Part shown: positions 15,521-58,614 of the stretch, piece by piece
How the letters are laid out: each line of letters starts with the position of its first letter
Numbering within the stretch: the stretch's first letter is position 1
Assembly (NCBI GenBank): GCA_017427775.1
Contig: JAFRSD010000013.1
Span: 124,001-188,000 of the forward strand
From: Lachnospiraceae bacterium
GTDB lineage: Bacteria > Bacillota > Clostridia > Lachnospirales > Lachnospiraceae
Direction: 5' to 3'
DNA length: 64,000 bases
The notes under the pieces: model-generated
Database searches by the model: none
Told to the model about the DNA's origin: nothing
The model's input: the letters and a program-made list of their open reading frames with translations, nothing else
Position numbers and translations under genes: made by a program

Positions 15521-15555
15521 CGCGGCTTTGCCGAGACAAAGGATACAGAGGTGTT

Positions 15556-27167: not shown

Positions 27168-27543
27168 GCGTTTGGGTGATATGGAATAAGGAGTGGACAT
27201 TGAAGATGATTAATACATCGGATTGCGAATGGTATGCAACCTGTGATTGTTGGGCTAATATCAAAGCCGGGAAATACGTGTTATAGTTTTGGACCGGAGG
27301 TTTGTCACACAATAACAAAAGTTTAATGAAGCAGGTAACGTGGCGACAGTCGCCCCGGTGCCTGCTGTATTTTTCCCTTTTCTTGGTTTTTGCACGTTTT
27401 TTCTCATTTTCCCTATGGAATTTTTCGGCCAAACTTGTTATTATGTTATATAGGCATATTATGCCCATGGGGTTACAATTGATTTTCGTCTGACATCGGG
27501 TTGTGACCCGGAGAAGGTGCGGTTATTTGAAGGAGGGTTGCTT
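27168..27543 (+). other. Intergenic region with a possible 28-residue peptide and a hairpin
   Basis: Frame 27200-27286 starts at TTG with AAGGAG eight bases upstream and encodes a Cys-rich peptide containing SDCEWYATCDCWANIKAG; it may be a remnant. A hairpin at 27331-27365 (GCAGG ... CCTGC with inner GGCGAC/GTCGCC) is followed by TGTATTTTTCCCTTTT and looks like a terminator. A weak promoter, TTGTTA about 16 bases before TATTAT, lies near 27437-27464, ahead of the MORN gene. The region is AT-rich like the genes to its left. Confidence 0.45.
27331..27377 (+). terminator. Probable terminator before MORN gene
   Basis: Compound stem GCAGG/CCTGC enclosing GGCGAC/GTCGCC, followed by a T-rich run (TTTTTCCCTTTT). 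Confidence 0.6.
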
Positions 27544-30500
27544 ATGGCTGAATTGTTATGTGTTGTATGCAAAGAGAATAAAGCCGGCGGGGATGGCTTA
27601 TGTGTAAAATGTCGTTTCAAGATGAATACACAGCAGGAGTCTGCCCCTCTTGAAGAGCAGGAACTGCTTCTGCCCGAGGGCCGGTATTTCGGAAAGACGC
27701 GTAACGGAATTCCGAACGGCCGCGGCGAGCTGACATATAATGAGGGTGATTCCCGGAAGTACTACAGGGGAGAATTTAAGGACGGCATGCGGCACGGCAA
27801 GGGGAAGCTCGTGTTCCGCAATGATGCTTACTATGACGGTGAGTGGGTTCACGACAAATACGACGGCTACGGCGAGGAGTCAATCCCGGGCGGTAACGTG
27901 CTTGAGGGTTACTATGAGCAGGGCCGGCTGATCAGCGGACATGTATTTTTCGGTGACGGTCGTGAATATGACGGTGAGTGGAGCAATGATCTGCCGAACG
28001 GCATGGGCAAGATGTTCTTCCATGACGGCCACGCAGAGGAAGGCTTCTGGATCAACGGCGTATGCGCATTCCGTGACAAGCCCGATGATGAGCAGATTCA
28101 GGCATTTCTCCGTAAGCAGGAGGAGATTGCCCGTGAGGAAGAGGAGATGCTCGCTGAGGAGAATGAGCGCCGTCGTCTTGCAAAGGAGAAGCGTGACCGT
28201 ATGATCGCGCAGCTTCGTGAGCAGCAGGCCAAGGAACAGGAAGGCGGAGACCGTTTCTACGCCGCAGAGCCTGTAATGGCTGTTGAAGAAGAGATTAATA
28301 ATGCTATTCGCGGGAACAAGAACGAGGAGGAAACTCCCGAAGAGACCGCTCCCACGGAAGTGCTTTCGAATGATGAGAACGAGCAGGCATTTGCCGGCGA
28401 TACGGAAGAGACTGCGGTTGAAATTCCGGTTGAGGAAGACGATGATTCGGCGGAGACCGAAAAGGCTGAGGAGACCGCGAATGTCGAAGAGTCCTCTGCA
28501 CCTGCTGATGATACCGATTATCTCGTTCCCGACCAGCCGGTTGACAAGGAAGAGATGGAGCAGGCTCCGCCTGTGCCGTCTGCGACTGCGGTATTTATGC
28601 GCGACGGTTTTCCGCCGGCATACGATGAGAATCCCGCTGAGGAATCTTTCTTAGAGACCGCGCTTTATAAGCCCGGCGAGGAATTTCCTTCTTTTGACGC
28701 TTTGTTCGAGGACGAAGAGGAGAAAGAGGAAGAGCCCGCACCGGTTGAAAAGAAACACGAAGAGATTCCTATCATCATTGAGGATAATACCATCTACGGT
28801 GATGACGGCATGTCCGCGGAAATCGTTTACGATTCGCCTTTCGACAGAGCAGACGCAACGCCTGTGAAAGAAGAGGCTGTGGAGGCTGCTGTTGAGGCTT
28901 CGGAGGAAACCGAAGAAGCCGCTACGGAAGTTGCGGAGGCTGCGGAAGAGGCGGTTGAGACCGTTGAGGAGACTGTTGAAGAGGCAGCAGAGGAAACTGC
29001 TGAGACGCTAGAGGCTGTTGAAGAGACAGTCGAAGAGACCGCAGAAGAAGTGACCGAAGAGGCTGCGGAAACCGCAGAGGCTGTTGAAGAAGCAGTTGAT
29101 GAGATCAAGGAAGAGGCAGCGGAAGAAGTTGCCGAGACCGTTGAGGAAGCCAAGGAAGCCGCTGAAGCTGTTGCCGAAGAGACCAAGGAAGCCGCTGTTG
29201 AGGCAGTTGCAGAAACATTGGCGGAGCAGCCTGTCGAGAAGCCCGTTGAGCAGCCGGTTGAAAAAACTGTGGAGCAGCCGCTTGGCAAGACCGGATATTT
29301 CTCCGAGACCTATGCAAACGGCCAGATGTACGAGGGCGACTTCTATGACGGACGCCGTCAGGGTAACGGCTTAATGATTTATCCGAACGGCGATATCTAT
29401 GAAGGCGGTTATTATGCCGGCAAACGCCATGGACAGGGAGTCCTGACCTACGGCAACGGCAGCATATATGAAGGCAGCTGGGAGAATGGCATGAAGTCCG
29501 GCAAGGGTAAGTTCACCAAGAAGAGCGGTGAGAGTTACCAGGGTGATTTTGTGGCGGGCGCATTTGCCGGACACGGTATCCTTCGTTACGAGAACGGCGA
29601 CGTTTTCGAAGGCGAATGGTTCAACAACCGTCAGAACGGTGAAGGTATCATGACCTATGCCGACGGCACTCAGGAGAAGCAGGTTTGGGAGAATGGAATC
29701 AAAATCTCCGCTGAGCCGCTGATCGCTGAAGAACCCGCTCCGGTTGAGGAAGCAGTTGAAGATGTTATCGAGCCGATTGAAGAGAAGGCGGAGGAAGTAA
29801 CGGAAGCAGTTGAAGAGACTGTGGAAGAGGATACCGAGAACATAGAGGAAACAGTTGAGGAAACTACTGAGACCGTAGAAGAAACTGCGGAAGCGGTTGA
29901 AGAAGCCGTGGAGGAAGCGACCGAAACAACGGAAGAAGTTACCGAGACTGTAGAAGAAGCTGCTGAGGAAGTAACGGAAGCAGTTGAAGAGACTGTGGAA
30001 GAGGTTACCGAGGAATTGGAAGAGGCAGTTGAAGGAGTGACTGAAACTGCTGAAGAAGCTGCCGAGGAAGTAACTGAGGATGCTGAGGGAACCGTTGAGG
30101 AAATAACCGAGGCGGTTGAAGAGACTGCTGAAGAGGTTGCCGAAGTTGTAGAGGAAGTAACCGAACAGGCCGAAGAGGCTGCAGAAGAAGTAGCGGAATC
30201 GGTTGAAGAGACCACAGAAGAAGTTGCTGAGAACGTTGAGGAGGTAACGGAAGCGGTTGAAGAAACTGTGGAAGAGGTTACCGAGAACGCGGAAGAGGCA
30301 GTTGAAGAAGTAACTGAGACTGCTGAGGAAAATGTTGAGGAAGCAACTGAGGCTGTTGAAGAGACAACCGAAGAAGTTTCCGAAACTGTAGAGGAGACTG
30401 TCGAGGAAGTAACCGAACAGACTGAAGAAGTAACCGAGCAGGTTGAAGAAACTATAGAAGAGGCAGCCGAGAAGGCTGAAGATACTGTAGAAGAAATCAC

Positions 30501-30948
30501 CGAGCAGGTTGAAGAGACTGCTGAGGAAGTAGCAGAGACGGCCGAGGAGACAGCGGCAGCAGTTGAGGAACCCGCCGAGGCATCTGCTTCTGAAGAACCT
30601 GAGGCTCCCGCAGAAGAGAAACTTCCCGCTGAGGAAGAGGCTCCGCAGCCCGTAGTTCGCGAGACGAAGTCGATCTCTTATAAGAACGGCAACAAGTATG
30701 CCGGACAGGTTAATGAGAAGGATCTTCCGGACGGTGTCGGTATTTATACTTATGCGAACGGCAGCCGGTACGAAGGAAGCTTCCGCGAAGGTATGCGTGA
30801 CGGTGTAGGCCGTTTCACATGGTCTACCGGAGACTACTATGAAGGCGACTGGAAGGACAACAACCGCCACGGTAACGGCCGCATGGTATTTGTCAGCGGA
30901 CGTGTAAGAGAAGGCCGTTTCGTAAATAACGAGTTTAAGCCGGAATAA
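27544..30948 (+). CDS. Giant MORN-repeat protein with zinc knuckle and acidic coiled-coil tracts
   Basis: 1134 residues from ATG 27544 (AAGGAGGG upstream). Order: an N-terminal zinc-knuckle-like C-V-V-C ... C-V-K-C (6-24), a MORN block (about 40-180, e.g. GRYFGKTRNGIPNGRGELTY), a charged Glu-rich helix (about 185-240), acidic linkers, a first Glu/Val/Thr/Ala tract (about 440-560), a second MORN block (about 580-715), a long tract in 11-residue periods (about 750-1010, e.g. EEVTENAEEAVEEVTETAEE), and a final MORN block (about 1040-1130). There is no signal peptide or membrane helix. MORN repeats often bind phospholipid or protein. It is 19 bases before a tyrosine-phosphatase gene, so it may belong to that kinase/phosphatase operon. 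Confidence 0.85.
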   Translation: MAELLCVVCKENKAGGDGLCVKCRFKMNTQQESAPLEEQELLLPEGRYFGKTRNGIPNGRGELTYNEGDSRKYYRGEFKDGMRHGKGKLVFRNDAYYDGEWVHDKYDGYGEESIPGGNVLEGYYEQGRLISGHVFFGDGREYDGEWSNDLPNGMGKMFFHDGHAEEGFWINGVCAFRDKPDDEQIQAFLRKQEEIAREEEEMLAEENERRRLAKEKRDRMIAQLREQQAKEQEGGDRFYAAEPVMAVEEEINNAIRGNKNEEETPEETAPTEVLSNDENEQAFAGDTEETAVEIPVEEDDDSAETEKAEETANVEESSAPADDTDYLVPDQPVDKEEMEQAPPVPSATAVFMRDGFPPAYDENPAEESFLETALYKPGEEFPSFDALFEDEEEKEEEPAPVEKKHEEIPIIIEDNTIYGDDGMSAEIVYDSPFDRADATPVKEEAVEAAVEASEETEEAATEVAEAAEEAVETVEETVEEAAEETAETLEAVEETVEETAEEVTEEAAETAEAVEEAVDEIKEEAAEEVAETVEEAKEAAEAVAEETKEAAVEAVAETLAEQPVEKPVEQPVEKTVEQPLGKTGYFSETYANGQMYEGDFYDGRRQGNGLMIYPNGDIYEGGYYAGKRHGQGVLTYGNGSIYEGSWENGMKSGKGKFTKKSGESYQGDFVAGAFAGHGILRYENGDVFEGEWFNNRQNGEGIMTYADGTQEKQVWENGIKISAEPLIAEEPAPVEEAVEDVIEPIEEKAEEVTEAVEETVEEDTENIEETVEETTETVEETAEAVEEAVEEATETTEEVTETVEEAAEEVTEAVEETVEEVTEELEEAVEGVTETAEEAAEEVTEDAEGTVEEITEAVEETAEEVAEVVEEVTEQAEEAAEEVAESVEETTEEVAENVEEVTEAVEETVEEVTENAEEAVEEVTETAEENVEEATEAVEETTEEVSETVEETVEEVTEQTEEVTEQVEETIEEAAEKAEDTVEEITEQVEETAEEVAETAEETAAAVEEPAEASASEEPEAPAEEKLPAEEEAPQPVVRETKSISYKNGNKYAGQVNEKDLPDGVGIYTYANGSRYEGSFREGMRDGVGRFTWSTGDYYEGDWKDNNRHGNGRMVFVSGRVREGRFVNNEFKPE
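28861..29225 (+). repeat. First acidic coiled-coil tract inside MORN gene
   Basis: DNA rich in GAAGAG/GCTGAG/GTTGAG triplets encoding Glu-Glu-x-x-Glu patterns (VEETVEEAAEETAE and similar). Periods are 7 and 11 residues mixed; similar in wording to the longer tract downstream. Confidence 0.75.
29790..30570 (+). repeat. Hendecad (33-bp) repeat tract inside MORN gene
   Basis: About two dozen imperfect 33-bp units coding for 11-residue repeats of the form EEVTExxEExx, broken in places by 7-residue insertions. Units differ at synonymous and non-synonymous sites, so it is an old tandem array. An 11/7 mix predicts a long right-handed or straight coiled coil. Confidence 0.82.
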
Positions 30949-46622: not shown

Positions 46623-47774
46623 ATGCTTCACAGAATGGCGGAGGAGGAGATCCGAATCCGGAAGATCGAGAATCTCCGGATGGTTTCTCTTTATGAATTT
46701 ACCGGAGCCGTACGGCAGCCGGGCGAACGTTCGAATGCGGACGGAACGCCCCGGGGATGTACGGCTATTACTGTTCTCTGCGGCGAGAACGAACAGTTCA
46801 CCCTGAGTGAAATGGACCCTTATTTCGATGCGCTCTGCGATCAGACGCTTACGGTTTACGGACGTCTTCCCGACCGCAGCGCGGTTGTGATGGACGATGC
46901 TACGCGTGCCGTGATGGAGGCCGGCATTTCCGTTTCGGAGGACAGCTTTACCGAACGGTTCTATGAAATGACCGGCAATCCGCTGCCGATGCTTCCCTAT
47001 GATGCGTGCCTTTCCAAACGTTTTCTGCCGCTTGCGGAATATATCGTCGGCGAGATGGAAACGGTTCTCGAGCGGAACGGAAAGGTGACTGACCGGGTGA
47101 CCGGATGGCGCGGCAAAGGGCTTCTGCAGCTGCATCTCGGCGAAGAGTTCCCGCAAGTCCCGGTCATGGCCATGCGGATGGGCGTGTCGTCGTACAGGAT
47201 GACGCTCGGCGGCTATCCGGAGGAAAGGGAGAATACGCTTTGTGATATTACGGTGCAGCCGGACCGGATGGAGGTCGCATTTGCCTCGGAGAAATCAGGA
47301 CTTACCGGTCGATGGGAGTTCCTGTTTTCAATCCCGTATATGGAAACGCGGATCACGATATCCCGCGGCGGAAAGGAGATCTGCTACGAGTGCAACCGCT
47401 TTCAGGCAGTAGGGAATGCGGAACTTACGGAAAAGGAGAAGAAGCTGCTTCCGGAAGGGGTTAAACCGACGGTTCTTTACAGACTTCCGTGGGGCGTGAC
47501 ATTTGTCCTGACCGAGACCGGGGAGAAGTTCGGAACGATCACAAGAAACCATTACCAAAGGTCGCTTGTATACCCGGATGCGGGGTACTCCGAAACATTT
47601 TCCTGGAGCGTGATCAGGAATACAGAGAGCGGCGTCGTGCTCAGAAAGAACAATGTCCGTATGATTCGAAGCAGCGTCGGAGGCGGACGGTATCAGACTT
47701 ATTTCAGTGAAGCTGGCGGCGGAATGACCGGGAGGTACCGGACCGCTCTGGCCGGCAAATACTTTATTTCATAG
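46623..47774 (+). CDS. Unknown 383-residue protein, first gene of AAA+/TelA cluster
   Basis: No family is recognised. It has no signal peptide or membrane helix. The N-terminus (AEEEIRIRKIENLRMVSLYE) is charged; the middle carries CTAITVLCGENEQF and strand-rich parts (ITVQPDRMEVAFASEKSGLT; WEFLFSIPYMETRITISRGG), and the C-terminus ends with GGGRYQTYFSEAGGGMTGRY. GGTGGG lies six bases before ATG 46623; an ATG four codons later is an alternative. It is followed ten bases later by the AAA+ gene and so belongs to that operon. Function not assignable. Confidence 0.65.
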   Translation: MLHRMAEEEIRIRKIENLRMVSLYEFTGAVRQPGERSNADGTPRGCTAITVLCGENEQFTLSEMDPYFDALCDQTLTVYGRLPDRSAVVMDDATRAVMEAGISVSEDSFTERFYEMTGNPLPMLPYDACLSKRFLPLAEYIVGEMETVLERNGKVTDRVTGWRGKGLLQLHLGEEFPQVPVMAMRMGVSSYRMTLGGYPEERENTLCDITVQPDRMEVAFASEKSGLTGRWEFLFSIPYMETRITISRGGKEICYECNRFQAVGNAELTEKEKKLLPEGVKPTVLYRLPWGVTFVLTETGEKFGTITRNHYQRSLVYPDAGYSETFSWSVIRNTESGVVLRKNNVRMIRSSVGGGRYQTYFSEAGGGMTGRYRTALAGKYFIS

Positions 47775-47783
47775 GGGGACGTC

Positions 47784-50111
47784 ATGGGAATCTTCAGCCC
47801 GAAAAATTCGGATCCGACAAGGGAATTGTACGACCGGATCGCAGAAACACTGGACCGCTACAGGGACGAAAAAACAAGAGCTCTGTACCGCATGGTGACA
47901 GAATACTACAATCATCCGGAGCGCAGCGTCATTAAGCCGGTAGCGCTCTTCCTCGAAGTTGTGGACACGATTATGAACAATCAGATCAGTTTCAACCGTG
48001 CAAACTGGCTCGATGCCGTGAAGTACGGTGAACTGATCTATCCGCATATGTTTATGTTAGAGGAGGATACGCAGGATTTCGACGCTCTCGCGAAGGTCTA
48101 TATTTCCATGTTCGGACCTTACAACGTAGTATATGCGAGAATGTTTATCCCGAAGCTGTTTCACCTGTTTACGGACAAGATCAACTACTGCCGCTGGATC
48201 CTGTCGATCGAGGATAAGGACGGCCTGACGTCGACGCGCAGAGGCGTGATCTCGGAATTTGCCATTAAGATCCGCTCGTTCTGCATGGATGAGGACGTGT
48301 TTACCGCCTCCCTGATCCGACTTACGTCCCGGATTCTCGAAGGAGAAGACCCGAAAGCCGCTGCGGAGCGCGAATACGCAACGCTGCGCCGCATGAGCGG
48401 TGTCTATAACGTCAGCGAGGAGCGCATCCTTTTAGCAGAGCAGAAGATTGACGCGGTACAGGCAGCGACGACCAAGCTGCAGGATTCCCTGAAGCTTTCC
48501 GAAGACCGCGCAGAAATGCTGAACGGCCTGTCGGAACGCATTACGAAGGATGTCAAGACGTTCTGCGACGATGAAGTTTCGAACGTAAAAGCAACGCTCA
48601 GCAGTCTCCGTGAGGACATCAAGCGAATCCACACGGAGTTTACGGAAAGCCAGAGACGTTCCGTGCTGGCGGAAAAGGACGAGCTTGTCAACAGCATTAT
48701 CTCGGAGAGCCAGAACGGACTCCGCGAGCTGAAGGGTCAGGCGGACACGATCATTAAGGATGCCCGCAGAGACCTGCTCCGTTTGAACCGCGAGTCCACG
48801 GAAACCGTGAACCGTGTCGAAAACTATGTAAAGAATAACGAGCGTATTAAAGATATTCTTGCCGACGATACCTTCTCGCAGCAGCTGAACGACAAGATCG
48901 ATAAACTGATGGAAATGTATGAGTCCAGGATGGCGGCAGGGGAGATGCCCATGCCCGTCGTTGCTGCGCCGACCCAGGGCACCGGCCGCACCGTGATCGT
49001 GGAAAGACCGGCCGCACCCGCCGGGGAAGGCCGTCCGTATGCACCCGCGGAAGGACCTGCCGGACAGCCGCCGATGCCGCCGGAAGGACGCCCTCCGATG
49101 CCGCCGGAAGGAACGGATATGCCGGTGCCGCCGGTTATCCTTCACAACTGGATGAACGAGGCGAACTACGAGCCGAGTGTGCTGCTTGACGAGAATATCG
49201 CATTTGACGAACGCTACCGCATCGCCATGAAGCGGAAGCAGGATATGATGAACCACGGCGTGCATTTTCACGCAATGTTCGACGACGTTCTGATCGCCGT
49301 GATGGAAAATGCGAATCCTTACCTGATCGGTCCCTCCGGCTGCGGAAAGACTTTCATGGTGCAGCAGATCGCGCAGATTCTCGACGTGGAAAGCGTCGAT
49401 ATCGGATATATCAACGAGGAATACGACATCCTCGGCTTCCAGACCGCGAACGGCGGTTACAGCTGCCCGAATTTCTACCGCTGCTACAAGTACGGCAAGA
49501 TTGCGTTCTGCGACGAGCTTGACAACGGTAACAGCCGTGCTACCGTAAAGCTCAATTCCTTCCTTTCGGATACGACCAACGGCGCGTATGATTTCCCGCA
49601 CGGGGAACGTGTCATGCGTCATCCGAACTTCCGCATTATCGCAGCCGGCAATACGACCGGTAACGGCGCGGACGCAAACTACAATACCCGTGAGAAGATC
49701 GAAGAGTCGGTACAGCAGCGTTTCACTCCGGTCTTCGTCGGATACGATAACGAAGTCGAGAAGAGCATTCTCGGGGATTATACGGACTGGTACCGCTTCG
49801 TGGTTGCTTTCCGTGACGCGACGACCGCATGGTCCAAACTGTCGCGCGCGGCTGCGCCCGGTATCATTACAACGCGTGACGTAACAAGAATCCGCAAGTA
49901 TCTTGACCATAACAGCTTCCCGGACGAGAAGATCATCGAGTATGAATTTGTCCAGACGAAGGATCCCGAGTATCTCGCATTTCTCGCGAAGGAACTCAGC
50001 CGCGAGTACGGCAAGAAGGATGCCGACCCGGGCTGCATCGAGCTGATCCGGGTATTTGTCCAGAGAGCATCGGACATTGTCGAGGGCAGGGATATTTCCA
50101 GACTGTTCTGA
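47784..50111 (+). CDS. AAA+ ATPase of CbbQ/MoxR type with coiled-coil N-terminus
   Basis: 775 residues. A helical N-terminal domain (about 1-215), a long coiled coil (about 215-370; VKATLSSLREDIKRIHTEFT), a Pro-rich linker (about 390-450; PPEGRPPMPPEGTDMPVPP), and an AAA+ domain at about 490-770. Walker A is GPSGCGKT (about 515), Walker B IAFCDELDN (about 573), sensor AAGNTTG, and ESVQQRF supplies an arginine-finger-like Arg. The domain resembles dynein-like/CbbQ/NorQ ATPases that remodel partner proteins, often together with a von Willebrand A protein. The two genes after it are an unknown protein and TelA. The substrate is unknown. Confidence 0.85.
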   Translation: MGIFSPKNSDPTRELYDRIAETLDRYRDEKTRALYRMVTEYYNHPERSVIKPVALFLEVVDTIMNNQISFNRANWLDAVKYGELIYPHMFMLEEDTQDFDALAKVYISMFGPYNVVYARMFIPKLFHLFTDKINYCRWILSIEDKDGLTSTRRGVISEFAIKIRSFCMDEDVFTASLIRLTSRILEGEDPKAAAEREYATLRRMSGVYNVSEERILLAEQKIDAVQAATTKLQDSLKLSEDRAEMLNGLSERITKDVKTFCDDEVSNVKATLSSLREDIKRIHTEFTESQRRSVLAEKDELVNSIISESQNGLRELKGQADTIIKDARRDLLRLNRESTETVNRVENYVKNNERIKDILADDTFSQQLNDKIDKLMEMYESRMAAGEMPMPVVAAPTQGTGRTVIVERPAAPAGEGRPYAPAEGPAGQPPMPPEGRPPMPPEGTDMPVPPVILHNWMNEANYEPSVLLDENIAFDERYRIAMKRKQDMMNHGVHFHAMFDDVLIAVMENANPYLIGPSGCGKTFMVQQIAQILDVESVDIGYINEEYDILGFQTANGGYSCPNFYRCYKYGKIAFCDELDNGNSRATVKLNSFLSDTTNGAYDFPHGERVMRHPNFRIIAAGNTTGNGADANYNTREKIEESVQQRFTPVFVGYDNEVEKSILGDYTDWYRFVVAFRDATTAWSKLSRAAAPGIITTRDVTRIRKYLDHNSFPDEKIIEYEFVQTKDPEYLAFLAKELSREYGKKDADPGCIELIRVFVQRASDIVEGRDISRLF

Positions 50112-50127
50112 TACAGGAGAGTAAGAC

Positions 50128-51036
50128 ATGCAGGGAAACGGCGTTTCAGCAGAAGATTGCCGCTTTTTGACAATCAAAAAGAGAAAACAACTGATTATCT
50201 ATCATCTGACGTTTGATTCCCTTCTCGAGATTGAACGGTTTCTCAGGTCGGATCCTCCGGTCAACGCAAAGAGTTTTCAGCATATGATGAGCATCCGCGC
50301 GGACGAAGCCTTCGCGGGACCGCCGCTTGATAAAGCGATCGCATTCTGCTCCGGAGGCTTTCAGGAGGGAATCGAGGATTTCTTCGCGGTTGCAAAGCCG
50401 CTAAGCGCCGTGACCAGACAGACGTTTAAGCAGCGGAAGGTGCATACCGCGATCGTCGGCAGCCGGCCGAACGTTCCGGCATATATCGCGGGCGAGCCGA
50501 AGAATATGTACCGGATGACCAGAGTTGTTGAGAAGAAGGTTATCCGGATGTACATGAATCTTTCGTATAACCGGAACACGACCGAAGAACAGATCCGTCG
50601 GCGCGGGGCACTCGTTCTCAACCTGATCGAGATACTCGAGCAGAATGGGTATATTGTCGATTTCCGCGTATTTACCGCAAGTATCGAGTATTCCGAACTG
50701 TTCCTCTGTGAGATCATGCTGAAGAAACCCGGCAGACGCCTGGAGGTCGCGAAAGTCTATTATCCGATGTGCGGAAAGGCCTTCCTGCGGCGCGTTATCT
50801 CCCGGCTGAAAGAGTCCATGCCGTTTAATGTTAACTGGGGAATGACCTACGGCAAAGTGGCGAGCGAGCTTCTGATCCGTGAAATACTGAAGATTGACAG
50901 CAAGTCTATTTACATCGGAACACCGCAGGAGATGGGCATCACGGGTGGCGACATCCGCATTGACGCGGACGCGTTCCTTTCCCGGATTCATCTGGACGGA
51001 AACATCATCATACCGCGGTTTTTCGAGGAAACATAA
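50128..51036 (+). CDS. Unknown protein, candidate partner of AAA+ ATPase
   Basis: A 302-residue soluble protein; the N-terminus LTFDSLLEIERFLRS is followed by CSGGFQEGIEDF, then SRPNVPAYIAGEPKNMYRM, a strand-rich core (VIRMYMNLSYNRNTTEEQ; LVLNLIEILEQNGYIVDFRV) and a C-terminus QEMGITGGDIRIDADAFLS. The alternating helix/strand core, about residues 130-290, sits where CbbQ/MoxR-type ATPases usually have a von Willebrand A partner, but no DxSxS metal motif is seen. Similar proteins occur near ATPases in phages; I do not assign a family. Starts 16 bases after the ATPase gene. Confidence 0.6.
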   Translation: MQGNGVSAEDCRFLTIKKRKQLIIYHLTFDSLLEIERFLRSDPPVNAKSFQHMMSIRADEAFAGPPLDKAIAFCSGGFQEGIEDFFAVAKPLSAVTRQTFKQRKVHTAIVGSRPNVPAYIAGEPKNMYRMTRVVEKKVIRMYMNLSYNRNTTEEQIRRRGALVLNLIEILEQNGYIVDFRVFTASIEYSELFLCEIMLKKPGRRLEVAKVYYPMCGKAFLRRVISRLKESMPFNVNWGMTYGKVASELLIREILKIDSKSIYIGTPQEMGITGGDIRIDADAFLSRIHLDGNIIIPRFFEET

Positions 51037-51059
51037 AGTGATTTTTGAAGGAGAGTGCA

Positions 51060-52109
51060 ATGGAAAAGGAGAAAGAAATCGGCTATTTGAGAGTGATCGC
51101 CGACAATCCCACGTTAGAGCTGGAGACGACCGATATTCCGCAGATCGAGACGAGTATCGCCGAGCTGGACAGCAACGACATCAACAGTATCACAAGGTAC
51201 GGTCTTGATACGCAGCGGAAAATGGCAGAGCTCTCGCAGGTGATGATCAACAACCTGAACAATTCGACGATCGATGAAGTTGACGACACGCTGAAGGAAA
51301 CCATTGCATACCTGTACGGGATCGAAGCGGACGACGATGATGACCGCCGTATCCTTTTCTGGAAGCGCAAGAACAATGCGGTTGCGATCCGTAAGAAATA
51401 TGATCAGGCGTCGAAGAACGTTGACAGTATCGCCAAAACGCTTGAGGAGCATCAGGTACGGCTCATCCGTGACTGCGCGTTTCTGAATCAGATGTTTGAA
51501 ATGAACCAGGATTACTACCGTCAGGCGGGTGTAAAGATTGCCGCGATCAAGATGAAGACGGACGAACTGAAGCTCAAGAGAAAAGGCGCGACCGCAAATG
51601 CGCTCGAGGATTCCTGGCTGAACAATATCATCGACCGGATGGAGCGGAAGGCCGTTGAGCTGGAGCTGTCCCGTACCGTTTCGATGCAGCAGGCGGCCCA
51701 GATCCGTATGCTGCAGACGAACTTCGCGGTAATGGCGGACAAGCTGCAGTCGACGCTTTACAATACGATCCCGCTCTGGAAGAACCAGATCATTCTTGCG
51801 CTCGGCGCAGAGCACGCGAGACAGGCTGCGCAGACCGATATGACCATCAATGACATGACCAACCGTCTTTTGATCCGCAATGCGGAGAATCTGAAGATGG
51901 TAACGGCCGAGACGCAGCGTGCCGCAGGCAATTCCGCGGTTGACGCTTCGACGCTTGCGGAAACCAACCGCCTGCTGATCGAAAGCCTGGATGAGGTTGT
52001 ACGGATTCAGTCCGAGAACCGTTCCAAGCGCGAAACCGTCGAGAGAGAGCTGGAGCGTATCGACCGTGAGATGAAGTACGGTATCCTGATCGATAAAGAG
52101 AACCAATAG
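51060..52109 (+). CDS. TelA (toxic anion resistance) family protein
   Basis: A 349-residue, mostly helical cytoplasmic protein. Hallmarks of the TelA/KlaA family: DTQRKMAELSQVMINNLNN, FWKRKNNAVAIRKKYDQASKN, QVRLIRDCAFLNQMFEMNQDYY (read in parts) and RTVSMQQAAQIRMLQTNFA, ending with LIESLDEVVRIQSENRSKR. TelA proteins are linked to tellurite and envelope stress and often lie beside Ter genes; no terD or terC is present here. ATG 51060 is chosen since AAGGAGAG precedes it; the frame opens earlier at 51045. It sits between the AAA+ pair and a zinc-ribbon membrane protein. Confidence 0.92.
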   Translation: MEKEKEIGYLRVIADNPTLELETTDIPQIETSIAELDSNDINSITRYGLDTQRKMAELSQVMINNLNNSTIDEVDDTLKETIAYLYGIEADDDDDRRILFWKRKNNAVAIRKKYDQASKNVDSIAKTLEEHQVRLIRDCAFLNQMFEMNQDYYRQAGVKIAAIKMKTDELKLKRKGATANALEDSWLNNIIDRMERKAVELELSRTVSMQQAAQIRMLQTNFAVMADKLQSTLYNTIPLWKNQIILALGAEHARQAAQTDMTINDMTNRLLIRNAENLKMVTAETQRAAGNSAVDASTLAETNRLLIESLDEVVRIQSENRSKRETVERELERIDREMKYGILIDKENQ

Positions 52110-52153
52110 ATCCGAAAGCCGCCCGTAAGCAAACGGAACGCAGGAGAACAATC

Positions 52154-53761
52154 ATGTTGCTGCAATGCCCCGAATGTAAAGGAAAACTTGTCTATGACAT
52201 CGCTTCCGAAGGGATGGTGTGTTCTTCATGCGGCAAATTGTTCCACCGGGACGATCTGCGAGGCGTGAAACGCGAAGTACTCAAACAGAGGAAACTCGAT
52301 GAACTTTTGCTTGAAGTAAGCGGCGCGGAAAGCCTGATCCCCGCGGAAGACCGCGGGATTGCGGTTACCGTATACACCTGTCCCGTGTGCGGTCGGGAGA
52401 TCATCGGCGACCCGGGGCTTGATCTTACGGGCTGTTCGCATTGCGGTGCCGGTAAGAAGCTGGAGCCGTGTGATACGGCTATGCACCGTCCGGATATGAT
52501 CATTCCTTTCAAGATCACCAGGGAAGAATGTCTCCGCAGATATAAACATTTTACGGAAAAGCAGATTTACAGACCGTTTCAGGCCATGGGAGACGGCGGT
52601 TTCCGTCCGGTATACATGCCGTTCCATTCCTATGATTTTAAGCGCGAAGGACGCTACCTGTTTGAAGGCAAGACGCGTGAGGCCGGCGAGGGAACCACGA
52701 TTGTCACGTGGTATAAGGTGCATGGCAGGATGCGCGGCCATTTTGAAGATGTTTCCGTTCCGGCGACCGAAGACATGAATAACCGTGTGGCCGAAGAAAT
52801 CCTGCCGTTCCGCTATGATGAAGCCGTTCCGTTTGAGGAAAGCTATCTGAGCGGATTCTATGTCTTTCCGGAGAATAAAGACCCGGAAGTGACGAAACGG
52901 GCGATGAAGAAGGCCGAGGTCGAGCTTGTGATCGCGCAGGCGAAGAAGGACTTCGCTGATATCGGTCTCAATGTGAATAAGGCACGCAAGCAGCTGCTCG
53001 GAGAAGAAAAAGCCGGCACGGTTTCGTCCGAAGAGATGCATCTCTATCCGGTATGGTATATGCCGTTTAAGACCGGCGACCGCGTCAGCTACGCGATGGT
53101 GAACGGACAGACAGGAGAGGTTGCGGGGGAAGTTCCCGTATCCCGCAGAAAGCTGTTCTCGTGGGTGGCGCTTACGGCAATCCCGCTTGTATTTCTGTTC
53201 CGGCTGCTCTGTACGGCAACACCTTCCTACCTGTATTTCGCGATCACGCTTGCATCGATGATCCTTTCCTGGATCACGCTCGCGGAAGTGCGCGACCTGT
53301 ATCGGAAGAGCGTCGGATTTGTGATGACAACCACACCACAGAAGATTATCGAGGGCGTGTCGTGGGTCGTGGCGGGAGCAGGATTGATGACGTTTTTCAC
53401 CTACGGACCGTTAGAATCGTTCCCATTATTGTTCTGGGGCAGTGAATCGGCGCTTTCCAAGGTCCGCCTGATCAACTGTATTCTTCTTGCGGTGCTGACG
53501 GTATACCGGTTCGCGGAACTGGATTACCGCTATTCGGCAATCGTCAACAGGGATGATACGGTTCCTGCGGCAATTCTTCTTGTAACGGCTGCCGTTTCAA
53601 CCATTCTGTTCTGCTTTGATTTTGACAGTTTGTGGGGATTTATCCCCGCGCCGATACTGGCACTCGGTACGGCATTTGCCGTCAAATACCAGATTGCGGT
53701 TCATAACCGGCTGGAGTCCGAACGGATCACGCCGCGCGCAGAAGGGAGGGAAGACGGATGA
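52154..53761 (+). CDS. Double zinc-ribbon membrane protein (copy 1)
   Basis: A 535-residue protein. Zinc ribbons: CPECKGKLVYDIASEGMVCS-SCGK at the N-terminus and YTCPVCGREIIGD ... CSHCGAG (about 75-97). Then a soluble region with IIPFKITREECLRRYKHFTE, PVYMPFHSYDFKREGRYLFE, VPFEESYLSGFYVFPENKD and LYPVWYMPFKTGDRVSYAMV. Last come about five helices (from about residue 335). It is clearly a paralogue of the protein at 56184-57872, with the same motifs in the same order. Such proteins are often labelled 'TFIIB-type zinc ribbon' although no transcription role is shown. It overlaps the small gene that follows. Confidence 0.75.
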   Translation: MLLQCPECKGKLVYDIASEGMVCSSCGKLFHRDDLRGVKREVLKQRKLDELLLEVSGAESLIPAEDRGIAVTVYTCPVCGREIIGDPGLDLTGCSHCGAGKKLEPCDTAMHRPDMIIPFKITREECLRRYKHFTEKQIYRPFQAMGDGGFRPVYMPFHSYDFKREGRYLFEGKTREAGEGTTIVTWYKVHGRMRGHFEDVSVPATEDMNNRVAEEILPFRYDEAVPFEESYLSGFYVFPENKDPEVTKRAMKKAEVELVIAQAKKDFADIGLNVNKARKQLLGEEKAGTVSSEEMHLYPVWYMPFKTGDRVSYAMVNGQTGEVAGEVPVSRRKLFSWVALTAIPLVFLFRLLCTATPSYLYFAITLASMILSWITLAEVRDLYRKSVGFVMTTTPQKIIEGVSWVVAGAGLMTFFTYGPLESFPLLFWGSESALSKVRLINCILLAVLTVYRFAELDYRYSAIVNRDDTVPAAILLVTAAVSTILFCFDFDSLWGFIPAPILALGTAFAVKYQIAVHNRLESERITPRAEGREDG

Positions 53762-53967
53762 TCATCCTTTATCTTGTCAGTATTCTTACGGCGCTTCTTG
53801 TTTCCCTTGTTCTGCATGTGACGATCCTCCGGTTTTTAAGCCGGAAGACGGGCGTCAACACGAAGAAGAACATGAGAGAGCAGAAGGGCGGCATGGTTTT
53901 CAAACGCGAATTTACCGAAACGCGGGTTTCTTACGAGTACAATTACTTTTCGGGCGACGGGTTATAA
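53758..53967 (+). CDS. Small single-pass membrane protein in zinc-ribbon module
   Basis: 69 residues: one helix (IILYLVSILTALLVSLVLHV) and a charged tail (SRKTGVNTKKNMREQKGGMV ... RVSYEYNYFSGDG). Overlaps the zinc-ribbon gene by ATGA. Its order and tail resemble the last third of the TPM-domain lipoprotein at 57862-58614 (one helix, then LRRLNAKKE ... DVTSRKVVVLNN), which overlaps the other zinc-ribbon copy in the same way. It could be a version that lost the TPM domain. Confidence 0.65.
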   Translation: MIILYLVSILTALLVSLVLHVTILRFLSRKTGVNTKKNMREQKGGMVFKREFTETRVSYEYNYFSGDGL

Positions 53968-54021
53968 ACCGCCGCTCGTTTCATTTTCCGTCAAAATGTC
54001 AATGGGTTTTACTCATTCATA

Positions 54022-54050
54022 TTGCATAAGAATGGAAGTTATGCTATACT
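54022..54050 (+). promoter_or_regulatory. Promoter of thrC
   Basis: TTGCAT (54022-54027), 17 bases, TATACT (54045-54050). It shows that thrC is transcribed independently of the TelA cluster. Confidence 0.82.
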
Positions 54051-54100
54051 GAATCAAAATGGCGACACGTGTACTGTGTTTATGAAAGAAGGATAAAAGA

Positions 54101-55603
54101 ATGAATATTATGTACCGGAATACAAGAGGACAGGGCAGTGAAGTAACCGCCTCGCAGGCAATTCTTAAGGGACTTGCGGACGGCGGCGGACTGTATGTTC
54201 CGACCTCTTATCCGAAGATGGATAAAAGCCTTGTTGAGCTTGCCTCAATGGATTATAAGGGCGTGGCTTACGAGGTGATGAAGCTGTTCTTCACGGATTA
54301 TACCGAGGAGGAGCTTCGTGGCTGCATCGAGAAGGCATACGACGAGAAGTTCGATAACGATGAGATCGCGCCGATGGCGGAAGCCGATCACGCTTATTAT
54401 CTCGAACTGTTCCACGGCCAGACGATCGCCTTCAAGGATATGGCGCTTTCCATCCTGCCGCACCTTCTTACGACGGCAGCGAAGAAGAACAACCAGAAGG
54501 ACGAGATTGTCATCCTGACGGCTACCTCCGGCGATACCGGAAAGGCTGCTCTGGCGGGCTTCCGCGACGTACCCGGAACGAAGATCATCGTATTTTACCC
54601 GAAGAACGGCGTGAGCCGTATCCAGGAGCTGCAGATGGTTACCGAGAAAGGCGCCAATACGACCGTGATCGGCGTGGACGGCAACTTCGACGACTGCCAG
54701 ACCGGCGTAAAGAAGATGTTCACGAATGAGACGCTCAAGAAGGACATGGCGGCAAAGGGCATGGTATTTTCCTCTGCCAATTCCATTAACATCGGACGTC
54801 TCGTGCCGCAGGTGGCATATTATGTATTCGCTTATACGAGACTTCTGAAGGAGGAGCGCATCAAGGCCGGCGATCCGGTCAATTATGTTGTTCCGACCGG
54901 TAACTTCGGGAATATTCTTGCCTGCTTCTACGCGAAGAAGCTCGGGCTTCCTGTTGCGAAGATGATCTGCGCGTCCAATGAGAATAAGGTGCTGTACGAT
55001 TTCTTCACAACAGGCACCTACGATATCCGCAGAAAGTTCATCCTGACCAGCTCACCGTCCATGGATATTCTGATCTCGAGCAACCTCGAGCGTCTGATCT
55101 ATCACAGCGCGGGCGATGACGCCGCGAAGAACGCGGAGCGCATGGAAGGGCTGAAGAAGGACGGTATCTATACCGTTACGGACGCCATGAAGAAGGAAAT
55201 GGCCGACTTCGTTCCCGGTTTTGCAACCGAGGCGGATACGGCAGCCGAGATCAAAGAATTGTATGAGCGGACCGGCTATGTGATCGATACGCATACGGCC
55301 GTTGCTTCGTCGGTATACCGCCGCTACCGTAAGGAGAGCGGGGACGAGACGCCTACGGTGATCGTTTCGACCGCCAGCCCGTTCAAATTTGCCAGAAGCG
55401 TTATGGAAGCCATTAACGGCGGTAAGGACGAGAGAGAGGACTTCGCCGTGATCGACGCCCTTTCGAAGACGGCAAATGTGGCGGAGCCTCCGGCAATCCT
55501 TGAGATCCGTACGGCTCCCGTCAGACATGACACGGTATGCGAAATCAACGGAATGGAGCGCGAAGTACGCCGCGTTCTCAATGTTCCGGGGACGGAGGCA
55601 TAA
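54101..55603 (+). CDS. thrC: Threonine synthase
   Basis: PLP enzyme converting O-phosphohomoserine to threonine. Fold-type II, 500 residues (the longer yeast/proteobacterial class). N-terminal ASQAILKGLADGGGLYVP, Schiff-base Lys in HGQTIAFKDMALSILPHLL, TATSGDTGKAALAGF for phosphate binding, VPTGNFGNILACFYAKKLGL, and C-terminal DTHTAVASSVYR. Start 54101 follows AAGGAT; a second ATG three codons on is possible. Four bases separate it from the export-protein gene. Confidence 0.96.
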   Translation: MNIMYRNTRGQGSEVTASQAILKGLADGGGLYVPTSYPKMDKSLVELASMDYKGVAYEVMKLFFTDYTEEELRGCIEKAYDEKFDNDEIAPMAEADHAYYLELFHGQTIAFKDMALSILPHLLTTAAKKNNQKDEIVILTATSGDTGKAALAGFRDVPGTKIIVFYPKNGVSRIQELQMVTEKGANTTVIGVDGNFDDCQTGVKKMFTNETLKKDMAAKGMVFSSANSINIGRLVPQVAYYVFAYTRLLKEERIKAGDPVNYVVPTGNFGNILACFYAKKLGLPVAKMICASNENKVLYDFFTTGTYDIRRKFILTSSPSMDILISSNLERLIYHSAGDDAAKNAERMEGLKKDGIYTVTDAMKKEMADFVPGFATEADTAAEIKELYERTGYVIDTHTAVASSVYRRYRKESGDETPTVIVSTASPFKFARSVMEAINGGKDEREDFAVIDALSKTANVAEPPAILEIRTAPVRHDTVCEINGMEREVRRVLNVPGTEA

Positions 55604-55606
55604 TCC

Positions 55607-56116
55607 GTGTCGGAAGCATTAAGATCGTTAGCAGACTGGTATAATAATTCCCTCGGCCGGTTTATGCCGAAGGAAGTGTTCATTTTCCTTGTTTCCATGG
55701 TGCCGCTTATTGAGCTGCGCGGCGGTCTTGTTGTCGCAAAGCTTTTGAATATCGGGCTTTGGAAGGCCAATCTGATCTGCATCATCGGAAATATTATCCC
55801 GATTCCTTTTATTCTGCTGTTCATAAAGGCAATCTTCGCGTTTATGAAGAAGCACAATATCTTAAAGGGATTGGTGGAGAAACTCGAGGAACGCGCGGAG
55901 AAGAAATCCAAAGGCAAGGACCGCGGAGAGTTCCTGTTCCTTCTGTTCTTCGTCGGCATTCCGATTCCCGGAACCGGCGCGTGGACGGGTTCTCTGATCG
56001 CGGCACTGTTCGAGTTCGACATTAAGAAGGCGTCGATTGCAATCTTTCTCGGGCTGCTTCTTGCGGCACTGCTGATGAGCCTTTTCAGTTACGGTTTTCT
56101 CGGGCTGTTTGTATAA
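55607..56116 (+). CDS. Small multidrug export family membrane protein (COG2426 type)
   Basis: 169 residues. Helices include VFIFLVSMVPLIELRGGLVV and IPIPFILLFIKAIFAFM, with the conserved FVGIPIPGTGAWTGSLIAALF that marks this family of putative exporters. GTG start at 55607 with GGAGG eight bases ahead. Probably co-transcribed with thrC. Substrate unknown. Confidence 0.85.
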   Translation: MSEALRSLADWYNNSLGRFMPKEVFIFLVSMVPLIELRGGLVVAKLLNIGLWKANLICIIGNIIPIPFILLFIKAIFAFMKKHNILKGLVEKLEERAEKKSKGKDRGEFLFLLFFVGIPIPGTGAWTGSLIAALFEFDIKKASIAIFLGLLLAALLMSLFSYGFLGLFV

Positions 56117-56183
56117 CGGCAGGGCGTGACGGCGCCTCGTCCGTCAAAGATTTGTGGGGATTATTTTATGAGGAGGTAAAGTA

Positions 56184-57872
56184 ATGGTTGGGTGTCCCGG
56201 ATGCGGAAGTAAACTGGTTTTTGATATCAAGACCCAGCAGATGAAGTGCAGCTATTGCGGCAAATTCTATCTGGTCAGCCAAGTCTCGGAACGGTCGAAG
56301 AATGCGGAAGAGCATACGGAGGCAACGGATTATGATCCGATGTCTGCCGACAATCCGGAGTATTTCGGACAGGACGAGTTCGGGGATGAGTTCAGTCATA
56401 TCGGTGCGCATGTGCCGATGAACGAAAAGGAAATGGTTGTAACCGTTTTCACCTGTTCCCAATGCGGAGCGGAGATTGTGGCGGATTCTGATGAGGCGGT
56501 TACGTGGTGCAGCTACTGCGGCAGCCCGGCAACGCTTCGAAGCAGGCTCAGCCGGATCCGTAAACCGGACAGGGTAATTCCCTTTAAGGTTACGAAGGAA
56601 GAGTGCATTGCCCGTTATCTCGCGGTTGCAAGAAAGCAGATCTACGCGCCGTCCGACCTGATCAGGGCCGGCAAAGCAGAGAGCTTCCGCGGAATCTATA
56701 TGCCGTTCTGGACCTACGAGGTGGACCGGGACGGAGAGTACCGTTTCCCCGGAATGACCGTGGATACGGTCGGAAATACGCAGACTACGACCCGCTATAT
56801 GGCTTCGGGTCATTTGAATTCCCATCATGAGGGGCTTTCTCATGATGCGTCGCTCACATTTGACGACTATGTGAGCGAGCAGATCATTCCGTTCATGGAG
56901 AAGGACGCGGAACCGTTCGACGAGTGCTATCTGAACGGCTTTTACGCGAACGCCGCCGACCAGAAGGATACGGAATACCGTTCCAAGATCCTTTCGATGG
57001 AGGGCGACCTGATCCTGAATCACGCCAAATGGCAGTTTAAGTCGATTGGACTGCAGGAGAATCAGGCTAAATCACAATTGTCCGATTACGGGGCCTATAA
57101 AGTAAGAACGAAATCGGCGCTTGAAATGGACCCCGTCTGGTTCCTTTCGTACCGCCGCGGTGACCGTGTGAGCTATGCCACGGTGAACGGGCAGACCGGC
57201 AGACTGTATGCGGATTTTCCGGCATCGCCTGCGAAGTTCTTCCTGTTTTCGCTGATCACGGCGATCCCGCTGTTCCTGCTGTTGAATCTGATGCTGACCG
57301 CGGCACCTTCCTTCGTGCTGTTTCTTGCGGTAATCGGCGCATTTGTTGCTTCTTCGATGTTTAAGAGCGAGATCGGGGAGATCTTCGCAAAGCAGTTTCA
57401 CATTAAGATGGATGCCGGCACGAAGAAGAAAATGAATATCAAAAAGATTCTGTCCGGATTGTTAAGCGCGCTGTTCATCGGCGCGGTCATAATGATAGAA
57501 GCGCTGCCGGATCTGCTCAGTGCAGGTTCCGAACTGTCCGGCGTATTCCGCGCGGAGTACTTGTATATCCTTGTCGCGGCCGTGTTTGCGATCGTTCTCG
57601 GCATACGGTTTTTCAAGATGAAGAGCCAATATATGTCGCTTTCCAATGTGCGGCTGAATCTGTCGAACGGATTATATCTCCTTGTTTCCGTTCTGGCGCT
57701 TGTGGTATTCATTATCCGGCCGGCGAACGACTGGGTTTACTATAGCATCGCATTGGCTGCTGCGGGAATTGTGGCACTTTCGGCAACGAACCTGATCCAC
57801 AACTACAATATCCTGTCGACGCAGAAACCGAAGCAGTTCAGCAGAAGCGGAGGTGATGACGGTGTTGCGTAA
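56184..57872 (+). CDS. Double zinc-ribbon membrane protein (copy 2)
   Basis: A 562-residue paralogue of the protein at 52154-53761. Zinc ribbons CPGCGSKLVFDIKTQQMKCS-YCGK and FTCSQCGAEIVAD ... CSYCGSPATL. Then RVIPFKVTKEECIARYLAVA, RGIYMPFWTYEVDRDGEYRF, PFDECYLNGFYANAADQKD and DPVWFLSYRRGDRVSYATVN. About six helices fill the C-terminal third. AGGAGGTAAAGTA precedes the ATG. It overlaps the TPM-lipoprotein gene by 11 bases. Confidence 0.78.
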   Translation: MVGCPGCGSKLVFDIKTQQMKCSYCGKFYLVSQVSERSKNAEEHTEATDYDPMSADNPEYFGQDEFGDEFSHIGAHVPMNEKEMVVTVFTCSQCGAEIVADSDEAVTWCSYCGSPATLRSRLSRIRKPDRVIPFKVTKEECIARYLAVARKQIYAPSDLIRAGKAESFRGIYMPFWTYEVDRDGEYRFPGMTVDTVGNTQTTTRYMASGHLNSHHEGLSHDASLTFDDYVSEQIIPFMEKDAEPFDECYLNGFYANAADQKDTEYRSKILSMEGDLILNHAKWQFKSIGLQENQAKSQLSDYGAYKVRTKSALEMDPVWFLSYRRGDRVSYATVNGQTGRLYADFPASPAKFFLFSLITAIPLFLLLNLMLTAAPSFVLFLAVIGAFVASSMFKSEIGEIFAKQFHIKMDAGTKKKMNIKKILSGLLSALFIGAVIMIEALPDLLSAGSELSGVFRAEYLYILVAAVFAIVLGIRFFKMKSQYMSLSNVRLNLSNGLYLLVSVLALVVFIIRPANDWVYYSIALAAAGIVALSATNLIHNYNILSTQKPKQFSRSGGDDGVA

Positions 57873-58614
57873 GATCTGGCTTATTATATGCATTTCAGCA
57901 GTCATGCTGCTTCTTGCCGGCTGCGGAAACCATGAGAAACCGACGGAACCCGGCAAAGTCATTATTGAGGACGGTGCCGGTCTGATCTCCGCCAGTGATG
58001 AGGAGTATCTGATCGGAGAGATGGAGAAACTGACCGAATACGGTAATATCGCTCTGGTCACCATTAACGAGAATTATAAAACAACCGATGTATATGCGGA
58101 ATTAGAGTACGAAAAGCTGTTTGGCAGAACGAGCGGCGCGCTGTTTCTGATCGATATGGATCGTCGTGAGATTTATCTGGAAGTCGGAGGATACATCGGC
58201 GATGTCATCAGCAGCGGAAAAGCGAGAACGATCACCGATAATGTATATCGTTATGCTTCCCGCGGTGAATACTGGAAATGTGCCAGAGATACCTTTGATC
58301 AGGTTAAGACGCTGATGGAAGGCGGCCGCATCGCGCAGACGATGAAATATGTTTCCAACGCGTTCATTGCCGTTCTGATTGCGCTTCTCGGAAACTTCAT
58401 TCTGCTTCGCAGACTGAATGCCAAGAAGGAAGTTTCCGTTGCGGAACTCGATTCCGCGAACACGGGCCGCGTCTCCTTTACAAACTGTAAGACAGACGTC
58501 ACCTCGAGGAAGGTTGTTGTACTCAACAATTCCTCCGGCGGCCGTGGCGGCTTCGGCGGCGGTTTCGGCGGTGGAGGCGGTCACTTCAGCCACGGCGGCG
58601 GCCATAGGTTCTGA
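57862..58614 (+). CDS. TPM-domain lipoprotein with Gly-rich tail
   Basis: Start GTG at 57862 is best: GGAGG at 57849-57853 is eight bases upstream, while the ATG at 57856 is too close. 250 residues. Signal with lipobox LAGC (about 19), a TPM (Psb32/YgcG-like) domain (about 40-150; VIIEDGAGLISASDEEYLIG, GALFLIDMDRREIYLEVGG, KARTITDNVYRYASRGEYW), one helix (AFIAVLIALLGNFILLRRL), and a tail FGGGFGGGGGHFSHGGGHRF. TPM proteins act outside the membrane in envelope and metal stress or phosphatase-like roles. It overlaps the zinc-ribbon gene. Confidence 0.85.
   Translation: MLRKIWLIICISAVMLLLAGCGNHEKPTEPGKVIIEDGAGLISASDEEYLIGEMEKLTEYGNIALVTINENYKTTDVYAELEYEKLFGRTSGALFLIDMDRREIYLEVGGYIGDVISSGKARTITDNVYRYASRGEYWKCARDTFDQVKTLMEGGRIAQTMKYVSNAFIAVLIALLGNFILLRRLNAKKEVSVAELDSANTGRVSFTNCKTDVTSRKVVVLNNSSGGRGGFGGGFGGGGGHFSHGGGHRF

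Follow-up and report, generated by a model that had tools for sequence, protein, structure and literature searches.

A conserved gut-bacterial operon joins a predicted MoxR-vWA motor to TelA and to a protein of possibly new fold

The DNA studied here is a 64-kb window (the whole stretch analysed) from Lachnospiraceae bacterium GCA_017427775.1, contig JAFRSD010000013.1, positions 124,001-188,000, and comes from the chromosome of a genome of 2.6 Mb (G000). Four genes of the window, all on the plus strand, are a strictly conserved gut-bacterial operon: GenA (383 residues; 46623-47774), a MoxR-class AAA+ ATPase (775 residues; 47784-50111), a DUF7192 protein (302 residues; 50128-51036) and a TelA family protein (51045-52109, with the start at 51045 or slightly downstream). 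With a probability of roughly one half, the segment 46623-52109 as a whole is best explained as encoding one cytoplasmic ATP-driven remodelling machine. The basis for this reading is the order and co-occurrence of the genes, their families, a predicted von Willebrand A (vWA) fold that has no metal site and contains a conserved segment, and a gene pair shared with phages. The closest named relatives carrying the operon are Lachnospiraceae, and its surroundings, judged by eye, resemble housekeeping genes.

Four genes kept in one order

Calls of open reading frames (ORFs) reproduce the positions and sizes given in an initial annotation of this DNA, and the gaps between the four genes are 9, 16 and 8 nt. 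Scanning the genome contigs of 84,980 species (one genome per species) with an ATPase alignment returned 87 relatives, of which the best 80, chosen by ATPase similarity, were surveyed, every member of the four core families serving as a query in each locus. Among the 80 are loci of Eubacterium ruminantium ATCC 17233 (L069) and Ruminococcus albus (L080 and L091). The ATPase is present in 80 loci, DUF7192 in 78, TelA in 76 and GenA in 75 (GenA in L037, L043 and L075 and DUF7192 in L083 were located by tblastn, not by gene calling), counts that are conditional on the ATPase because the loci were chosen by similarity to it. The loci without some core member are contigs that end inside or shortly behind the ATPase gene, and the five that lack GenA all do so at contig ends. 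In all 71 loci that show the four genes together, the order is GenA-ATPase-DUF7192-TelA within a span of at most 6.5 kb, and these are not 71 independent events, because several of the loci are closely related. The 310 called core genes share, without exception, one strand per locus, with median gaps of 3, -1 and 2 nt as computed from the earliest possible starts, and no further gene accompanies the four across the surveyed loci.

The initial annotation had treated these genes and the zinc-ribbon genes downstream as a single cluster, and had suggested a neighbourhood survey. The survey divides the cluster into the conserved four-gene core, in agreement with the proposal that these four proteins act as one unit, and variable neighbours: the DNA downstream of TelA holds a zinc-ribbon gene in some loci and other genes, or nothing on the same strand, in the rest, and a zinc-ribbon gene stands immediately 3' of TelA in just 6/80 loci, drawn from two groups of loci.

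Within the core, mean identity across 68 loci is 68% for the motor core, 23% for GenA and 29% for TelA. Hydropathy gives no membrane segment in any of the window's four core proteins; across the 68 loci, the threshold was passed by GenA in five and by the other core proteins in none. The full-length ATPase is found in 3/200 family genomes, and GenA in the identical three; matches of any kind to the ATPase occur in 114/200, those outside the three genomes being short, at most 26.2 bits and mostly around the P-loop. DUF7192 is found in 2/391 class genomes (that of the window and one in a phage-like stretch) and in 1/299 phylum genomes, again that of the window.

A predicted MoxR-vWA motor

The ATPase and the DUF7192 protein very probably form a MoxR-vWA motor. 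With limits set by eye, the ATPase consists of a helical region (residues ~1-205), a coiled coil (~205-390), a Pro-rich linker and the AAA core (~495-740). It matches AAA_5 (E 3e-10, 40.6 bits against a cut-off of 22) and belongs to phrog_249; the Walker A motif GPSGCGKT is present in 78/79 ATPases, and the Walker B pattern likewise in 78/79. The closest solved chains in a single-sequence search are NorQ and CbbQ (each E ~0.001), which supports the CbbQ/MoxR type assigned in the initial annotation; a three-sequence profile gave no solved chain at the same E limit.

The partner, listed at first as a protein of unknown family, is DUF7192 (PF23822, E 1e-23). The structure closest to its predicted model is the NorD vWA, and its gene adjoins that of the ATPase, which gives the MoxR gene a neighbour of predicted vWA fold. 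The DxSxS motif of the metal-ion-dependent adhesion site (MIDAS) occurs in 0/76 DUF7192 sequences. The initial remark that a vWA gene with a metal motif is missing here is thus literally true, and yet the DUF7192 protein is itself predicted to adopt the vWA fold, in a form that lacks the metal site. A MIDAS is usual but not universal in the vWA partners of MoxR proteins; passages of PMC7159879 report vWAs without the aspartates. The DUF7192 alignment comprises the window protein and 63 of 75 DUF7192 sequences, picked by eye. The position and invariance of residues 106-136 are consistent with a finger ahead of the MIDAS strand that enters the ring pore; this stretch, a candidate pore finger, sits where the finger of NorD lies.

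The ATPase core is thus nearest NorQ and CbbQ by sequence, and the partner model nearest the vWA of NorD. Unlike NorQ/NorD and CbbQ/CbbO, however, the operon has a partner without MIDAS and an ATPase with a helical and coiled-coil extension of ~460 residues; it adds GenA and TelA, and it comes without a known target enzyme.

The same pair occurs in phages: of 50,697 phage records, 272 contain DUF7192 and 314 the ATPase core (E <=1e-10). All five regions inspected (Staphylococcus phage Maine, Lactobacillus phage 3-521, Mycobacterium phage Douge, Rhizobium phage vB_RglS_P106B and Listeria phage P100) show a DUF7192/phrog_1909 gene 3' of the phrog_249 ATPase gene, with both genes on one strand and 0-2 small ORFs between them. 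Both families, their order and their strand equal those of the operon. The window ATPase is 35-37% identical to the phage ATPases, which are 253-413 residues long and lack the long extension of the operon ATPase. Neither GenA nor TelA had a tblastn match (E <=1e-3) in six phage or phage-like stretches of 2-13 kb. Two-gene cobST clusters are reported, in a portion of PMC8651126, to be widespread in tailed viruses, and a section of PMC10638138 describes a toxic anion resistance protein encoded by a Staphylococcus jumbo phage, with a MoxR-like ATPase discussed in the same paper. We note separately a phage-like DUF7192 gene in a same-class genome (L032:226-2133), beside a small RuvC-like gene (identified by eye); the ATPase was not matched in this 2.1-kb stretch, which is too short for its exclusion.

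GenA, TelA and the proposed machine

GenA has no match among Pfam, NCBIfam, PHROG or PADLOC models. Its AlphaFold2 model (predicted local distance difference test score 90.5) has an alpha/beta part at the N-terminus and a large C-terminal part rich in beta structure, and the whole chain found no convincing structural relative in PDB or BFVD; going by the model, GenA is possibly of new fold. The GenA match in G189 carries one flagged stop, and the tblastn match in L043 carries none. The GenA alignment comprises the window protein and 65 of 72 GenA sequences, picked by eye. GenA pairwise distances track those of the ATPase (r 0.95). After removal of the share explained by the ATPase core and DUF7192, the residual r is 0.62-0.64 between GenA and the N-terminal parts of the ATPase, 0.45 between GenA and TelA, and 0.18-0.21 between TelA and the N-terminal parts of the ATPase. 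Such correlations suggest that GenA contacts the ATPase, and are only suggestive because shared descent and alignment error inflate r.

TelA is assigned by PF05816 (E 8e-69, 232.7 bits, cut-off 30) and is the single TelA match in the genome of the window. It is divergent, at 233 bits against >300 for most full-length copies in the family and a maximum of 436; in 29/68 loci the operon protein is shorter than 260 residues. TelA matches occur in 81/150 family genomes, 76 of them exceeding the family cut-off, and genome G073 holds one TelA of each kind, operon-type and high-scoring. The operon thus shares the TelA family with the XpaC-TelA unit, but XpaC (PF10112) has no match in the genome of the window. 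TerD (PF02342) and TerC (PF03741) are likewise unmatched genome-wide; the initial annotation had noted no terD or terC here. To our knowledge, TelA has long been without a known mechanism. Short TelA-like proteins are also seen elsewhere in the family (L127:6167-6886, L128:6298-6918 and L129:5571-7655); those of L128 and L129 stand beside XpaC-family genes, L129 having two tandem TelA genes after XpaC, and that of L127 lies among membrane-protein genes. The ATPase was not matched in these three stretches.

Together, the four proteins could work as follows. By homology, the ATPase would assemble into the ring typical of MoxR proteins, and the metal-less vWA protein would dock on this ring and insert residues 106-136 into its central pore, like NorD with NorQ. 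ATP turnover would then twist or strain a target gripped by the remainder of the complex, with GenA and the variable coiled-coil N-terminal half of the ATPase serving as a specificity or docking module. The target or effector would most likely be TelA, or something that TelA holds, at the inner face of the membrane and under envelope stress. We consider the chances evenly balanced that the motor acts on TelA; envelope stress as the occasion, proposed in the initial annotation and still drawn from the TelA family, is plausible with the odds somewhat against it, and the membrane is the presumed working site. The picture in full, in which a phage-type MoxR/DUF7192 motor acts via GenA (possibly of new fold) to remodel a TelA assembly under the membrane, is tentative.

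Alternative explanations and neighbouring genes

The operon could instead be an anti-phage conflict system of the MoxR-vWA-X kind, in which the motor keeps the fast-evolving GenA and TelA off and frees them on attack, blocking entry at the membrane. The patchy spread (3/200 family genomes) and the contrast between the motor core (68% mean identity) and GenA and TelA (23% and 29%) would fit such a role. Passages of PMC7159879 describe ternary conflict systems with a MoxR AAA+ protein, a vWA, in some cases without the MIDAS aspartates, and a further variable protein, to which the operon bears a likeness; TelA is counted, in part of PMC7824862, with sub-membrane components that prevent the entry of phages or xenobiotics. 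However, GenA is unmatched in the model searches given above, which also found neither an effector enzyme nor a peptidase domain in the four proteins. PADLOC gave no convincing fit, the core yielding only coiled-coil and P-loop matches, with LmuB the best (E 9e-6, in the coiled-coil region). No defence context was seen among the flanking proteins covered. After omission of 21 near-duplicate loci, 190 flanking proteins were found, and 137 of the first 148 were used, none from loci beyond L093; the 11 omitted include, from L034, the zinc-ribbon and TPM genes and, from L093, the zinc-ribbon gene. The 25 commonest families per search were considered. In Pfam, ABC_tran was commonest, in five proteins, with an AbiEii-type AAA_21 in three; in PADLOC, mad3 was commonest, in five, the others occurring once or twice each and being largely E1-E2 models. 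Single mobile or defence genes could escape this test because only the commonest families were considered. Synteny is, moreover, stable within groups of related loci, unlike that of a hopping cassette, and we regard a conflict system as unlikely.

Since the motor pair is present in phages of Staphylococcus, Listeria, Lactobacillus, Mycobacterium and Rhizobium, the operon might be a domesticated phage assembly chaperone, with an ATPase-DUF7192 pair from a large phage now building a TelA-based sub-membrane structure. A role for a MoxR-vWA pair in jumbo-phage virion assembly is proposed in a portion of PMC7824862. With the patterns used, however, IMG/VR contigs yielded relatives neither of the cellular ATPase nor of DUF7192, and such an origin seems quite improbable. 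Metal insertion as in cobaltochelatase, in which a CobS-like ATPase loads metal into a cofactor or enzyme, recalls the porphyrin biosynthesis annotation of phrog_249 and the proposal, in part of PMC8651126, that viral CobST acts with host CobN. This reading is highly improbable: CobN (PF02514) has 0 matches in the genome of the window (the same search finds it in 5/14 control genomes), no extra gene accompanies the four, and the MIDAS is absent.

Behind TelA follow a zinc-ribbon membrane protein of 535 residues with five hydrophobic segments (52154-53761, plus strand) and a plus-strand frame of 69 residues (53758-53967). The first matches Trm112p (27.7 bits against a cut-off of 22), the remaining ribbon models being below cut-off in both zinc-ribbon proteins of the window. 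The 69-residue frame, described initially as a membrane stub, is indeed a membrane frame, but we reread it as the remnant of a decayed TPM-family gene, with the C-terminal membrane segment and tail and without the TPM domain: it aligns solely to residues 167-229 of a 233-residue protein that occupies this position in L039 (43% over 63 residues, E 7.5e-17), whose intact chain has a TPM domain at 37-150. The gene is intact in L034 as well. Next come thrC (54101-55603), recognised from its sequence, and a gene of the small multidrug-export family (PF06695; 55607-56116), both left out of the initial gene list, and then a second zinc-ribbon membrane protein (56184-57872, plus strand) and a TPM-domain protein (57853-58614, plus strand; E 1e-12) whose start looks lipoprotein-like by eye. 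Like the window, L034 and L039 have a zinc-ribbon gene after TelA; in these two loci both zinc-ribbon genes have a TPM-family gene behind them, the first of which is reduced in the window to the 69-residue frame. L090, L092, L093 and L096 have a shorter, different zinc-ribbon protein there. In L090:13759-15776 and L093:13765-15819, the stretch after TelA encodes a zinc-ribbon protein of 443-454 residues with two hydrophobic segments, and also a membrane protein with a single segment.

These zinc-ribbon and TPM genes look like ordinary neighbours outside the core, because the flank of TelA varies and relatives of zinc-ribbon protein 2 occur in 101/150 family genomes, against 3/200 for the ATPase and for GenA. 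The system proposed initially, a trans-membrane unit of zinc-ribbon proteins and TPM lipoprotein with the ATPase and TelA inside, draws on the adjacency in the window, L034 and L039 and on the different zinc-ribbon protein of the other four loci, but is the least probable of all, given the 6/80 loci, the 101/150 genomes, five matches in the window's own genome, the decayed TPM gene, and the same-genus genome L131, where 15 kb read around the operon gave no zinc-ribbon or TPM match.

Elsewhere in the window, 15517-18069 encodes an 850-residue protein that, by eye, has many glycine/tyrosine repeats resembling cell-wall-binding ones and ends in a transglutaminase-like part; 27517-30948 encodes a 1143-residue protein in which repeats that look MORN-like by eye accompany a very long, acidic and repetitive middle rich in Glu, Thr and Val; long open frames on the strand opposite the latter are probably due to composition.

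Returning to the ATP-driven remodelling machine, the motor is of a known type, and in our searches of the open-access literature we found no description of the combination seen here. The phage-borne domain DUF7192 can now be given a partner and a predicted fold, and it has a motif that can be mutated. That every complete locus seen keeps TelA together with a MoxR-vWA motor poses a testable question, namely what the motor pulls on. If the proposed machine is real, TelA would acquire a dedicated ATP-driven motor, and large phages would use the same motor pair on a different target.
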